Of a stretch of 64,000 nt of DNA, positions 3,045 through 7,243 are shown piece by piece. The stretch's first letter is position 1. Every line of letters begins with the position of its first letter. The notes beneath the pieces are model-generated. The model worked only from the letters and a program-made list of their open reading frames with translations. It was not told where the DNA came from and did not search any database. The position numbers were made by a program, and so were the translations under genes. The stretch spans positions 186,001 to 250,000 of the forward strand of contig NZ_CABHOU010000095.1 in assembly GCF_902168175.1 (NCBI RefSeq), in the 5' to 3' direction. This DNA comes from an uncultured Chitinophaga sp. GTDB taxonomy: Bacteria; Bacteroidota; Bacteroidia; Chitinophagales; Chitinophagaceae.

Positions 3045-3052
3045 TATATTTG
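3045..3052 (+). promoter_or_regulatory. candidate Bacteroidota -7 box TATATTTG
   Basis: Matches TAnnTTTG in an AT-rich intergenic region 56 bp upstream of a small ORF; no clear -33 TTTG. Confidence 0.4.
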
Positions 3053-3107
3053 CTGTAGAGTTAAATAGAAATACAACAAAACAGAAGTGTTACGCAGTTG
3101 TCAAAAT

Positions 3108-3182
3108 ATGAACCAAGTGATGATTTCACGCAAGCAAACAAAGCTGGCGGAGATTGAGCGGGTATGTTATAAACAGAAATAA
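3108..3182 (+). CDS. candidate small ORF, 24 aa (MNQVMISRKQTKLAEIERVCYKQK)
   Basis: ATG..TAA read by hand; followed by intrinsic terminator; shares the VCY/TATGTTAT core with neighbouring units. May be non-coding RNA instead. Confidence 0.35.
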   Translation: MNQVMISRKQTKLAEIERVCYKQK

Positions 3183-3206
3183 CTAAAAGTTACTAAGATA
3201 TAACAG

Positions 3207-3236
3207 AAGGTCCCGCCGGAAAGCGGGACCTTTTCT
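3207..3236 (+). terminator. intrinsic terminator
   Basis: AGGTCCCGC-cggaaa-GCGGGACCT followed by T-rich tail. Confidence 0.8.
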
Positions 3237-3247
3237 TTATAAGTGAG

Positions 3248-3376
3248 ATGGAAAAGATGATGATTCAAACGCTGTCGCAGAATGCATGCACGAGGATAAA
3301 CAAATGTATTATCCGAAAGGCATCAAAGCAGGCTTTTATGCAAAAAGCAGGGCGGGTGAGGTATGTTATGATTTAA
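3248..3376 (+). CDS. candidate small ORF, 42 aa (MEKMMIQTLSQNACTRINKC...GRVRYVMI); an alternative overlapping frame is the listed ORF 3286..3486
   Basis: ATG..TAA upstream of terminator; start MEKMMI resembles MNQVMI of the preceding unit at DNA level; contains GGTATGTTATG core. Confidence 0.25.
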   Translation: MEKMMIQTLSQNACTRINKCIIRKASKQAFMQKAGRVRYVMI

Positions 3377-3400
3377 ACGAAGTAGTTTATAATTATAAAT

Positions 3401-3437
3401 GCCCGGTCCGCAAACAAGATGCAGACCGGGCTTTTTA
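3401..3437 (+). terminator. intrinsic terminator
   Basis: GCCCGGTC...GACCGGGC followed by TTTTTATTT. Confidence 0.75.
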
Positions 3438-3537
3438 TTTAGCCGTTATGGAAAAGAATAGAATAGGACATCAACATATATATTAACCGGTACGCGCTTT
3501 AAATTTTAGAAGTGGCTTGCCCCCAAAACTTGAGCCC

Positions 3538-4107
3538 ATGAGAAATGTAGTACAACTTGTAAGAGAGGCCCTGGTTGAAAACTTTAGGGAAATCGACCGT
3601 TGGTTCGATAAGGATCATTCCCTGTTGCACTTCAAACCCACGTTAGACCACTGGAATGCCAGGGAAGTATTAGAGCACATTAGTTTAGCCAACTATTTTC
3701 TGCTCCTGATTATCAGCAAAAGCACCCGCCGCGCGCTGGACCGCCGTGTAGATGGCCTTATAGTGATGCCGCCAGCCAATTACGAAGAAAAGTTTCGCGA
3801 GATCGATGTGATCAGCGATGGCGATTTTCAATGGGTTAGGCCTGAACATATGGAGCCAACGGGCTTAAAAGCAATGTCGGAAGTGCGTACGCTGCTTAAA
3901 CAGCAATATGCACAGTGCATGTATAATCTTTCCCTGCTTAAAAACGGAGAAGGCCGGCTGGTAAGTATCAATATGAGCGTTAATAACCTCGGTAAAATCG
4001 ACGTTTATCAATACATCTATTTCCTTACCATGCACATACAGCGTCACGTTGGGCAGATGCAGAAATTGGAAATGCAGTATGAGGAAACAGAAGCAATGGC
4101 TTCCTAA
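3538..4107 (+). CDS. DinB-like superfamily protein
   Basis: Helical-bundle pattern with conserved histidines (EVLEHI, MHIQRHVGQMQ); ATG at 3538 preferred over TTG at 3517. Confidence 0.7.
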   Translation: MRNVVQLVREALVENFREIDRWFDKDHSLLHFKPTLDHWNAREVLEHISLANYFLLLIISKSTRRALDRRVDGLIVMPPANYEEKFREIDVISDGDFQWVRPEHMEPTGLKAMSEVRTLLKQQYAQCMYNLSLLKNGEGRLVSINMSVNNLGKIDVYQYIYFLTMHIQRHVGQMQKLEMQYEETEAMAS

Positions 4108-4131
4108 CTAATAAGGGTACACGGAATTTAT

Positions 4132-4163
4132 TTTGCAATTCAGACTTTTCGTGTATACCTTTG
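4132..4163 (+). promoter_or_regulatory. Bacteroidota sigma-ABfr-like promoter TTTG-N20-TACCTTTG
   Basis: TTTG at 4132-4135 and TACCTTTG at 4156-4163 with 20-nt spacer, upstream of the third small unit. Confidence 0.6.
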
Positions 4164-4187
4164 TATTCAACTTTAAAATTTATAACA

Positions 4188-4286
4188 ATGCTCACGAACA
4201 GATCATATGGGAATTTGGTGGCGGCTTATGCGGATAGCATAGACTGTAGCGGGTTCGGGGCGTGTTATGTCGATCAACGAAAATAG
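4188..4286 (+). CDS. candidate small ORF, 32 aa (MLTNRSYGNLVAAYADSIDCSGFGACYVDQRK)
   Basis: ATG..TAG read by hand between a good promoter and a terminator; contains ACY/GTGTTAT core. Confidence 0.4.
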   Translation: MLTNRSYGNLVAAYADSIDCSGFGACYVDQRK

Positions 4287-4308
4287 TAGTGAACGACTAA
4301 ATATAACA

Positions 4309-4339
4309 AGGTCCGGCCGTATAAGCCGGACCTTTTTTT
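4309..4339 (+). terminator. intrinsic terminator
   Basis: AGGTCCGGC..GCCGGACCT followed by T7. Confidence 0.85.
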
Positions 4340-4523
4340 ATACCACCCATACGACGCCGCTGCCTTATGGCAGCAAACCCAGGCATACAAAATGTGGTCG
4401 CCGGTAAAATATGTTATCCCCCGGCCCTGCAACCTGCTCATGTATTCACCTGCGGATAAAAAACTTACATTCATACAGCCGGTAATGCCGTTTTACCGGG
4501 TGCAACTATCAATAACAACATCA

Positions 4524-5924
4524 ATGGCAAAATTAAAACTGCGGGGTAAAGACCTGCGTAACATTGGTTATCCCGAAAGCCCGGTGATCAGCATCGCGAT
4601 AGGGGTAATGGAACAACATTACAAACATCATTCTGCAGAAGATGCGTTGGATATTTTAGCGAAAGTACTGGCAACACCTGAGGAATACCTGGAAGACGAA
4701 GCGCTGGTAAAGATCGCCGAGCGTTTGGTGGAAGAGGAAGAAGAACAAGAGCGTGCTTTACGTACCGAACCCGTACCATACAGCGTTTATGGTGCCAATT
4801 ATATTGACCCTGCTGCTATCAGGCAAATGGAACAGGCCGTACGCCTGCCCGTAGCTGTAGCCGGCGCTTTAATGCCCGATGCTCATCATGGGTATGGCCT
4901 GCCAATTGGCGGCGTACTAGCCACCGAAAACGCCGTAATACCATATGGAGTAGGCGTGGATATAGGATGCCGTATGTGCTTAAGCATTGTGGACCTGCCG
5001 GTAAAACTGCAGGCTGGCGAGTACAACAGGTTTGTGAAAGTACTGACCGATAACACCAAGTTCGGTACAGGCGCTGCCTGGAAACATACACCTGATAACG
5101 CAGTGCTGGAGCGTAACGAGTTCCGGGAACTGCCGCTGTTGAAGCACCTGCACGAAAAGGCAGTGGGACAACTGGGTACTTCCGGTTCAGGCAACCACTT
5201 CGTGGAATGGGGTATTGTGGAAATAGCAGATGATAAGAATGAGTGGGGATTGCCTGCAGGTGATTACACTGCTATCCTTACCCACTCCGGATCGCGGGGT
5301 TTAGGTGCGCAAATAGCGGGGCATTATACCAAGCTGGCAAAGGAGCTTTGTCCGTTGCCAAAAGAAGTGCAACACCTGGCCTGGTTAGATATGGATAGCG
5401 AAGAAGGCCAGGAATACTGGCTGGCTATGAATCTGGCCGGCGACTACGCCTCCGCCTGTCATCACCTGATCCATGAAAAGATGATCAAAGCGATGGGGGC
5501 CGAAGTGCTGGTGCGGGTAGAGAACCATCACAACTTCGCATGGAAAGAAAAACATGGAGGTAAAGAGATGATCGTTCACCGTAAAGGTGCTACGCCCGCA
5601 GGTAAAGGTGTGCTGGGAATTATCCCGGGTTCCATGACCGCACCTGGCTTTATAGTAAAGGGCCGTGGGGAGTCAGCTTCGCTTGATTCCGCATCGCATG
5701 GCGCAGGGCGGGCAATGTCCAGGAGCGCTGCCAAACAAAATGTAACGCGTAATGCGATGGATAAAATGTTGCGCGATAACGGGGTTACATTAATTGGCGG
5801 TGGATTGGATGAAGCGCCAATGGCCTATAAAAACATCAATGAAGTAATGGGAGCCCAAACCGACCTGGTGGAAGTTCTCGCCCGTTTTCGGCCTACTATT
5901 GTGAGGATGGCCGATGGGGAGTAA
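4524..5924 (+). CDS. rtcB: RtcB family RNA-splicing ligase
   Basis: VAGALMPDAHHGYGLPIGGVLAT, GVGVDIGCRMC, LGTSGSGNHFVEWG, HSGSRGLG, HHNFAWKE and SHGAGRAMSRSAAK motifs; ATG at 4524 gives MAKLKLRGKDLRNIGYPES. Confidence 0.93.
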   Translation: MAKLKLRGKDLRNIGYPESPVISIAIGVMEQHYKHHSAEDALDILAKVLATPEEYLEDEALVKIAERLVEEEEEQERALRTEPVPYSVYGANYIDPAAIRQMEQAVRLPVAVAGALMPDAHHGYGLPIGGVLATENAVIPYGVGVDIGCRMCLSIVDLPVKLQAGEYNRFVKVLTDNTKFGTGAAWKHTPDNAVLERNEFRELPLLKHLHEKAVGQLGTSGSGNHFVEWGIVEIADDKNEWGLPAGDYTAILTHSGSRGLGAQIAGHYTKLAKELCPLPKEVQHLAWLDMDSEEGQEYWLAMNLAGDYASACHHLIHEKMIKAMGAEVLVRVENHHNFAWKEKHGGKEMIVHRKGATPAGKGVLGIIPGSMTAPGFIVKGRGESASLDSASHGAGRAMSRSAAKQNVTRNAMDKMLRDNGVTLIGGGLDEAPMAYKNINEVMGAQTDLVEVLARFRPTIVRMADGE

Positions 5925-5981: not shown

Positions 5982-6515
5982 CTATTTCGTTTTTAACAAT
6001 TGTTCCACTCGTGAAAACGCCAGCCGGAACCAGGGAGTAAACGTATCCGCTTCGCTGGCCAGTTGTTCGCTGATCTTAGCAAGGGCTACATATTTATAGG
6101 CACTCACCTCGCTGCTCTCCGGTACTATTTCACCATCATACCTTCCAATAAACACATGATCGTATTCATGTTCGGTGAGGCCATTATCAAATTCAACCCT
6201 GTACGTAAAGCTGAACACCTCTTTCAGCTCACAATCAAATCCCATTTCTTCTTTTAATCTGCGGTGCGCCGCCTCTTCTACCCTTTCGCCCGGGAAAGGG
6301 TGGCTGCAGCAGGTGTTGGTCCACAGTCCGGGGCAGTGGTATTTGCCGGAGGCGCGTTGTTGCAAAAGCATTTCTCCCGCTGCATTGGTAATAAATACCG
6401 AAAATGCGCGGTGAAGTAAGCCTTTTTGATGGGCCTCGATTTTTTCCATGGTACCTACCGGCTCATCGTTCTCATTTACCAGAACAACGGCAGCAGCAAT
6501 TGAAGTGCTTAACAT
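5982..6515 (-). CDS. idi: isopentenyl-diphosphate delta-isomerase (type 1, Nudix)
   Basis: LLHRAFSVFI, LLQQRASGKYHCPGLWTNTCCSHPFPGE and Nudix-like RLKEEMGF motifs. Confidence 0.93.
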   Translation of the reverse strand: MLSTSIAAAVVLVNENDEPVGTMEKIEAHQKGLLHRAFSVFITNAAGEMLLQQRASGKYHCPGLWTNTCCSHPFPGERVEEAAHRRLKEEMGFDCELKEVFSFTYRVEFDNGLTEHEYDHVFIGRYDGEIVPESSEVSAYKYVALAKISEQLASEADTFTPWFRLAFSRVEQLLKTK

Positions 6516-6742: not shown

Positions 6743-7243
6743 TTAGTTGTTAGATACTTGTGCTTTCAGCATTTTCCTGGCAAAGTGAATACGGCTTTTG
6801 ATGGTACCTAAAGGTTCATGTAGAACATCGGCGATTTCGTAATACTTGAAACCGTCGAGAAACAACAGGAACGGCTTTTTGAAGATGATCGGCAACTGGT
6901 GAACGGCTACTTGTATGTCCTTAATCCTTAGTCCGGCTTCGGCGTGGTTACCGATAATGGTCTGGTGTGAGTTAAGCAGGAAGTCGTTGGAAGAGTTGTC
7001 GAAGCAGAGGTGTTGTTTTGATTTTCGCCGGTAGTTGTTAATAAAGATGTTCCTCATGATGGTGTACAGCCAGGCTCTGATATTTGTTCCTGCGAGGTAT
7101 TTCTCCTGGTTGGAGATGGCGCGGAACATAGTTTCCTGGTAGAGATCCTTGGCAGATTCGGCATCTTTGGTGAGGGTGATGGCGAATGGCTTAAGGAAAT
7201 CAGCATTGCTGAGTAATAGGGTGTTAAATTCAGCGGATGACAT
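6743..7243 (-). CDS. ECF-type RNA polymerase sigma factor
   Basis: Region 2 (AKDLYQETMFRAI) and region 4 (YEIADVLHEPLGTIKSRIHFARKML). Confidence 0.9.
   Translation of the reverse strand: MSSAEFNTLLLSNADFLKPFAITLTKDAESAKDLYQETMFRAISNQEKYLAGTNIRAWLYTIMRNIFINNYRRKSKQHLCFDNSSNDFLLNSHQTIIGNHAEAGLRIKDIQVAVHQLPIIFKKPFLLFLDGFKYYEIADVLHEPLGTIKSRIHFARKMLKAQVSNN

Follow-up and report, generated by a model that had tools for sequence, protein, structure and literature searches.

The three short units that flank a DinB_2 superfamily gene and precede the gene of the RNA ligase RtcB in the window (the whole 64-kb stretch of Chitinophaga DNA that was analyzed) are quite probably ribosome-mediated transcription attenuators, which would control a regulon of RNA-repair and backup-tRNA genes and would likely respond to impaired translation. 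This assignment draws on promoter motifs, leader ORFs, mutually exclusive structures, covariation, conservation and gene association, all of which are visible at the sequence level. The direction of control, the signal and repair as the purpose of the regulon we infer from the anatomy of the units and from the gene content. A sequence-only reading had placed the units at about 3108-3236, 3248-3437 and 4188-4339, and they were found there in the window sequence. The inverted repeats that it described are also present, namely TGTTAT (3165-3170) with ATAACA (3200-3205) in unit 1, the same pair at 4263-4268 and 4303-4308 in unit 3, and TAACT (3180-3184) with AGTTA (3188-3192) inside unit 1. It had proposed a small RNA family or a family of tiny peptide genes; a multi-copy RNA family and tiny ORFs do exist, but free-standing status does not hold, as the anatomy is that of cis-acting attenuators in mRNA leaders. 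The gene order in the window is a DUF3857 protein, unit 1, unit 2, the DinB_2 protein, unit 3 and RtcB, with the following features:

3045-3052, plus strand: putative unit 1 promoter, Bacteroidota-type -7 element TATATTTG (sequence)
3087-3182, plus strand: unit 1 leader ORF with GTG start, MLRSCQNMNQVMISRKQTKLAEIERVCYKQK followed by a stop (ORF list and relatives)
3158-3170, plus strand: 5´ side of the unit 1 antiterminator, GCGGG (3158-3162, pairs with 3212-3216) and TGTTAT (3165-3170, pairs with 3200-3205)
3180-3192, plus strand: unit 1 internal hairpin, TAACT-aaa-AGTTA (sequence and fold)
3200-3216, plus strand: 3´ side of the unit 1 antiterminator, ATAACA and CCCGC
3207-3237, plus strand: intrinsic terminator 1 (stem 3207-3232) with its T tail (terminator scan and fold; stem kept in alignment A1)
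3248-3376, plus strand: unit 2 leader ORF of 42 aa, MEKMMIQTLSQ..RVRYVMI followed by a stop
3352-3357, plus strand: 5´ arm of the unit 2 antiterminator, GCGGGT (covarying helix with 3406-3411)
3374-3389, plus strand: unit 2 internal hairpin, TAAAC..GTTTA (sequence and fold)
3401-3440, plus strand: intrinsic terminator 2 (stem 3401-3431; located in nearly all species, stem kept in alignment A2)
3497-3537, plus strand: third conserved element 5´ of the DinB start codon, a hairpin and CCCCAAAA (kept in the relatives displayed)
3538-4107, plus strand: DinB_2 superfamily protein, putative controlled gene (Pfam PF12867, E=8e-7)
4131-4163, plus strand: putative unit 3 promoter, TTTTG, 20 nt, TACCTTTG (sequence)
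4188-4286, plus strand: unit 3 leader ORF, MLTNRSYGNLVAAYADSIDCSGFGACYVDQRK followed by a stop, with a GACY ending as in the tRNA-operon leaders
4249-4340, plus strand: candidate unit 3 attenuator with antiterminator, internal region and terminator (stem 4308-4334), matched by models R1 and R2 (E-values below)
4524-5924, plus strand: RtcB RNA ligase, putative controlled gene (Pfam PF01139, E=6e-86)

A short leader ORF separates promoter and gene, and an intrinsic terminator lies 5´ of the gene. The CCCGC on the 3´ side of the unit 1 antiterminator is also part of the 5´ arm of terminator 1, and the 5´ arm of terminator 2, GGTCCGC, doubles as the 3´ arm of the unit 2 antiterminator. The leader stop codon falls between the antiterminator arms in the relatives of unit 1 and in the species with unit 2; in unit 1 it lies within the 5´ arm of the internal hairpin. 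Because terminator and antiterminator are mutually exclusive and the end of the ORF forms one of the arms, the units are built like ribosome-mediated attenuators. In the window, the unit 2 leader adopts the antiterminator fold once the 3´ arm of the terminator is omitted. The predicted fold of truncated unit 1 speaks against the proposed pairing, as another GGCGG segment pairs there with the same terminator arm.

On this anatomy, RNA polymerase would start at the promoter 5´ of unit 1, or at the separate promoter of unit 3, and transcribe the leader ORF. A ribosome that reaches the stop codon would cover the 5´ arm of the antiterminator, formed by the end of the ORF, so that the terminator would form and transcription would end early. 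When the ribosome is stalled upstream or is not loaded, the arm would pair with the 5´ arm of the terminator, and read-through would follow. Units 1 and 2 would act in series before the DinB_2 gene and unit 3 before rtcB; the serial arrangement would hold basal expression down. Stalled or absent translation of the leader would lead to expression of repair enzymes or spare tRNAs, with the sensing done by the ribosome itself. The likely signal is impaired translation, which may result from cleaved or missing tRNAs, damaged ribosomes or ribosome-targeting drugs.

Unit 1 lies upstream of the DinB_2 gene, which has one ortholog per genome, in 79/79 Chitinophaga genomes, as located with R1, a covariance model built from unit 1 and its orthologs; homologous units in related genomes are thus confirmed. 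In nearly all of the relatives checked, the motif TAnnTTTG is found 17-42 nt 5´ of the start codon of the leader ORF, which is itself kept in nearly all and is about 30 aa long. The 24-aa reading from an ATG proposed earlier gives way to a conserved ORF of 31 aa that starts from the GTG at 3087. The peptide occurs in three forms: MSRNCTYKMKV..MRACYSW, MQLISTYKISAMACKQKQV..MRACCTDC and MKRNPKYTISAMSCKQKQV..LRVCCTNC, each directly followed by a stop. The TGT and TAT codons of the core, which had been thought never to vary, appear in relatives as TGT-TGC, CGT-TGC, GGT-TAT or AGT-TAT. Over 50 species, GCGGG at the end of the ORF and CCCGC are paired in 98.8% of cells, and among these orthologs no covariation was seen in the antiterminator, whose helix hardly varies. 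Across paralogs the two arms of unit 1 do co-adapt: the own arms pair with -15.7 kcal/mol, compared with -9.0 and -10.6 kcal/mol with the arms of other groups.

Covariation is clear in unit 2. Its antiterminator helix occurs as ACGGAC/GTCCGT, ATGGGC/GCCCAT, GCGGA/TCCGC and ACCGGAA/TTCCGGT; 86.4% of cells are paired, and both sides change in 6/7 pairs. The covariation score is 0.434 versus 0.239 ± 0.019 in shuffled and at most 0.135 in slid controls, and the own 5´ and 3´ arms outpair permuted ones (0/2000 permutations as good). A leader ORF of the unit 2 layout, ending 21-35 nt 5´ of terminator 2, is found in 75/76 species, compared with 11.7 ± 3.4 in shuffled sequence. Terminator 2 itself is present upstream of DinB in nearly all of the 79 genomes; its automatic pick was poor for three loci (L081, L108 and L111). 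The V-C-Y tripeptide that the sequence-only reading assigned to this leader sits in a different frame, as the conserved 42-aa frame ends in RYVMI. No promoter is visible in the sequence of unit 2.

The hairpin at 3497-3537 appears in many species as GTTATGTGC..GTGCATAAC followed by CCCCAAA. Unit 3 has syntenic copies in C. sedimenti and in genome G069, and further species have a copy after DinB. In C. japonensis, the pair of units 1 and 2 sits 5´ of rtcB. The idea that unit 3 acts on RtcB alone was rejected because most species have other ORFs between DinB and RtcB. A NUDIX protein (5982-6515, minus strand) adjoins the RtcB region, and a sigma-70-family (region 2/4) protein is encoded nearby (6743-7243, minus strand). 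In genome G093 (C1:6131377-6132763), RtcB is split by an in-frame TAA; this genome is 65% complete and the split may be a sequencing error.

The units belong to a family that extends over several loci. R1 matches unit 3 in the 64-kb window with E=5.6e-4. A second covariance model, R2, was built from tRNA-operon and RNA-ligase places only, window units not included, and it matches unit 1 (E=6.9e-7) and unit 3 (E=0.016) in the window, which argues against a chance origin of the units and, since R2 holds no window unit, places unit 3 within the attenuator family. In a search of the own genome at E≤0.01, R2 finds exactly two places, a locus on contig C22 (1e-19, included in the model) and unit 1 (7.2e-5, not included). 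The core also stands above background: a strict pattern gave one further match in 6.6 Mb and the reversed control gave 0. At the C22 locus, two attenuators are followed by tRNA-Ile(UAU), Lys, Ile(GAU), His, Arg and Gln, and then by an RNaseH_like protein (PF04308) and a Band_7/slipin protein. Identity between the tRNAs of this operon and the housekeeping tRNAs compared does not exceed 70%. Spare tRNA arrays here (L244, 2238-2768) and at similar loci diverge strongly in sequence from housekeeping tRNAs and mostly begin with tRNA-Ile(UAU), a tRNA that is unusual in bacteria.

R1 matches a second conserved place in many genomes of the genus. Among the 33 second places, counted without matches that resemble plain terminators, 31 lie 5´ of tRNAs and 2, in two Chitinophaga genomes, lie 5´ of an RNA ligase (TIGR02306). 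At one pair of the tRNA-operon antiterminator, GC, GU and AU are all seen. R2 further matches other genera of the bacterial family with E down to 5e-17. Outside the genus, 15/16 of the places fetched at E<1e-4 are at RtcB, at an AAA gene (whether or not RtcB is in view), at arrays of as many as ten tRNA genes, or at TROVE (Ro60); the sixteenth (L349) resembles a plain terminator. Weak R1 or R2 matches at L255, L257-L262, L349, L352 and L356 were omitted on the same ground. In several genera (L344, L348 and L341), the attenuator is accompanied by a gene for an AAA ATPase, which has rtcB or tRNA genes as neighbors and may belong to the repair system. The divergent array of spare tRNAs, slipin and rtcB thus share one device. 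PADLOC gave no match for five regulon proteins. RtcR was found above the cut-off in 0/79 Chitinophaga genomes, and the E. coli control was positive.

A weaker R2 match within the same bacterial family (genome G192, locus L355, near 1500) lies before trpE, and its leader, MQQVNNKQWWWHTNSSGVM followed by a stop, contains WWW, three Trp codons. The trpE leader has the same attenuator layout as the units, which provides an internal check that ribosome-mediated attenuation employs such a layout in this bacterial family. A run of a single codon is absent from all attenuator leaders except this one. The leaders of the tRNA operons are enriched in His, Gln and Ile. The enrichment of leader residues correlates with the array tRNAs (Spearman 0.44, P=0.05) no better than in the out-of-frame control (0.47, P=0.035); the idea that the residues track the array tRNAs is not supported. 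The KQKQ codons of the DinB leaders are not claimed as a stall site, because by eye the segment also forms a CCTGC..GCAGG hairpin and its conservation may be structural. In the tRNA-operon leaders, a hairpin 5´ of the antiterminator arm is stronger than in shuffled sequence (13.8 versus 9.4 ± 0.6), and we suggest that it may serve as a polymerase pause site. More tentatively, and with considerable doubt, each leader peptide could be an integrity sensor for several tRNAs, whose codons (R, I, Q, H, K, N and Y) would probe the targets of anticodon nucleases; the loss of any one tRNA would then stall the ribosome and release the matching spare tRNAs together with RNA-repair enzymes. Translation itself would sense RNA damage, in cis and with no regulator protein.

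Over the first 18-20 codons the leaders show a dN/dS of 0.44-0.52, and one shifted frame in one clade gives a similar value; the N-terminal half may owe part of its conservation to the peptide. Conservation at the protein level was rejected as the main signal, since dN/dS is only moderately low and the shifted frame behaves alike in that clade. The GCGGG region shifts frame in several species while its letters stay unchanged; the antiterminator region is thus kept as RNA. The frame across the unit 2 antiterminator likewise varies by clade, and CGGCGGAGAAGGTATG is read in two frames in different species. These observations bear on whether the ORFs encode functional micropeptides (a RiPP precursor, or a metal-binding or toxin-like peptide) with RNA folds that serve only expression. 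A dN/dS near 0.5 and the Cys-rich ends, such as RACCTDC before the stop, fit such peptides, but the C-terminal frame changes in several species while the RNA letters stay, the same unit 2 nucleotides are used in two frames, the peptides have no Pfam family match beyond a single sub-threshold one, and the association with RNA repair is left unexplained. There is thus very little chance that this account is correct.

Another account, which we consider very improbable, is that of small trans-acting RNAs about 180 nt long: each unit would be a gene in its own right, with promoter and terminator, and the ORFs would be incidental. Units 1 and 3 are indeed bounded by a promoter and a terminator, and a strong terminator would yield a short RNA. 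However, the units always lie directly 5´ of the same genes, their ORFs persist in 75/76 species for unit 2 and in nearly all for unit 1, a covarying antiterminator shares sequence with the terminator, and unit 2 lacks a visible promoter. Switching between terminator and antiterminator before tRNA-related targets would also be expected of a metabolite- or tRNA-binding (T-box-like) riboswitch in which the ORF takes no part, a reading that we think very unlikely to hold. A large conserved aptamer is absent, and the leader ORFs are conserved with their stop codons within the switch. The Rfam search that had been suggested gave 0 matches in the window at the gathering threshold, T-box included, and a permissive scan of the region gave weak matches only, every one below the gathering score and none of them a T-box.

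Ribosome-mediated attenuation, if true, would tell how RtcB and silent tRNA arrays are turned on in a bacterial family whose genus Chitinophaga lacks RtcR. It would also connect translation stress with the DinB_2, AAA, slipin and RNase H-like proteins, and would put a reporter at hand for both tRNA cleavage and drugs that target the ribosome. In the literature searched we found no account of leader-peptide attenuation that controls RNA-repair or backup-tRNA genes.

Leader-peptide attenuation is textbook knowledge for amino-acid operons and for some resistance genes. The units resemble the trp, his and ilv attenuators in the leader peptide, in the stop codon inside exclusive structures and in the hairpin before the antiterminator; those attenuators control biosynthesis, whereas here the targets are RNA-repair and tRNA genes, a single-codon run is missing and two attenuators stand in series. 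Within Bacteroidota, signs of leader-peptide attenuation before amino-acid operons have been described in Flavobacterium psychrophilum (PMC9723704). Antibiotic-induced attenuators of resistance genes, in which the leader RNA lets expression follow drug exposure (PMC5418344), share attenuation by leader RNA with the units, but they serve resistance genes and not a multi-locus family at repair genes and tRNAs. In Salmonella, RtcR senses tRNA halves and activates transcription of rtcBA and rsr-yrlBA-rtcBA upon tRNA damage (PMC7790460). The genes for RtcB and Ro60/Rsr (TROVE) are common to both systems, whereas the regulator RtcR is found in none of the 79 genomes here. In Anabaena, a silent extra tRNA array (the trn operon) is induced by translation-targeting antibiotics, and the ribbon-helix-helix repressor TrcR is common to the trn array, rtcB and a slipin gene (PMC10272220). 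Much the same gene set is involved here, under a putative RNA attenuator in cis in contrast to the repressor protein of Anabaena. Since RtcR is absent, and since RtcB, Ro60, slipin and tRNA arrays are elsewhere turned on by translation stress or tRNA damage, the simplest reading would be that the ribosome does the sensing.
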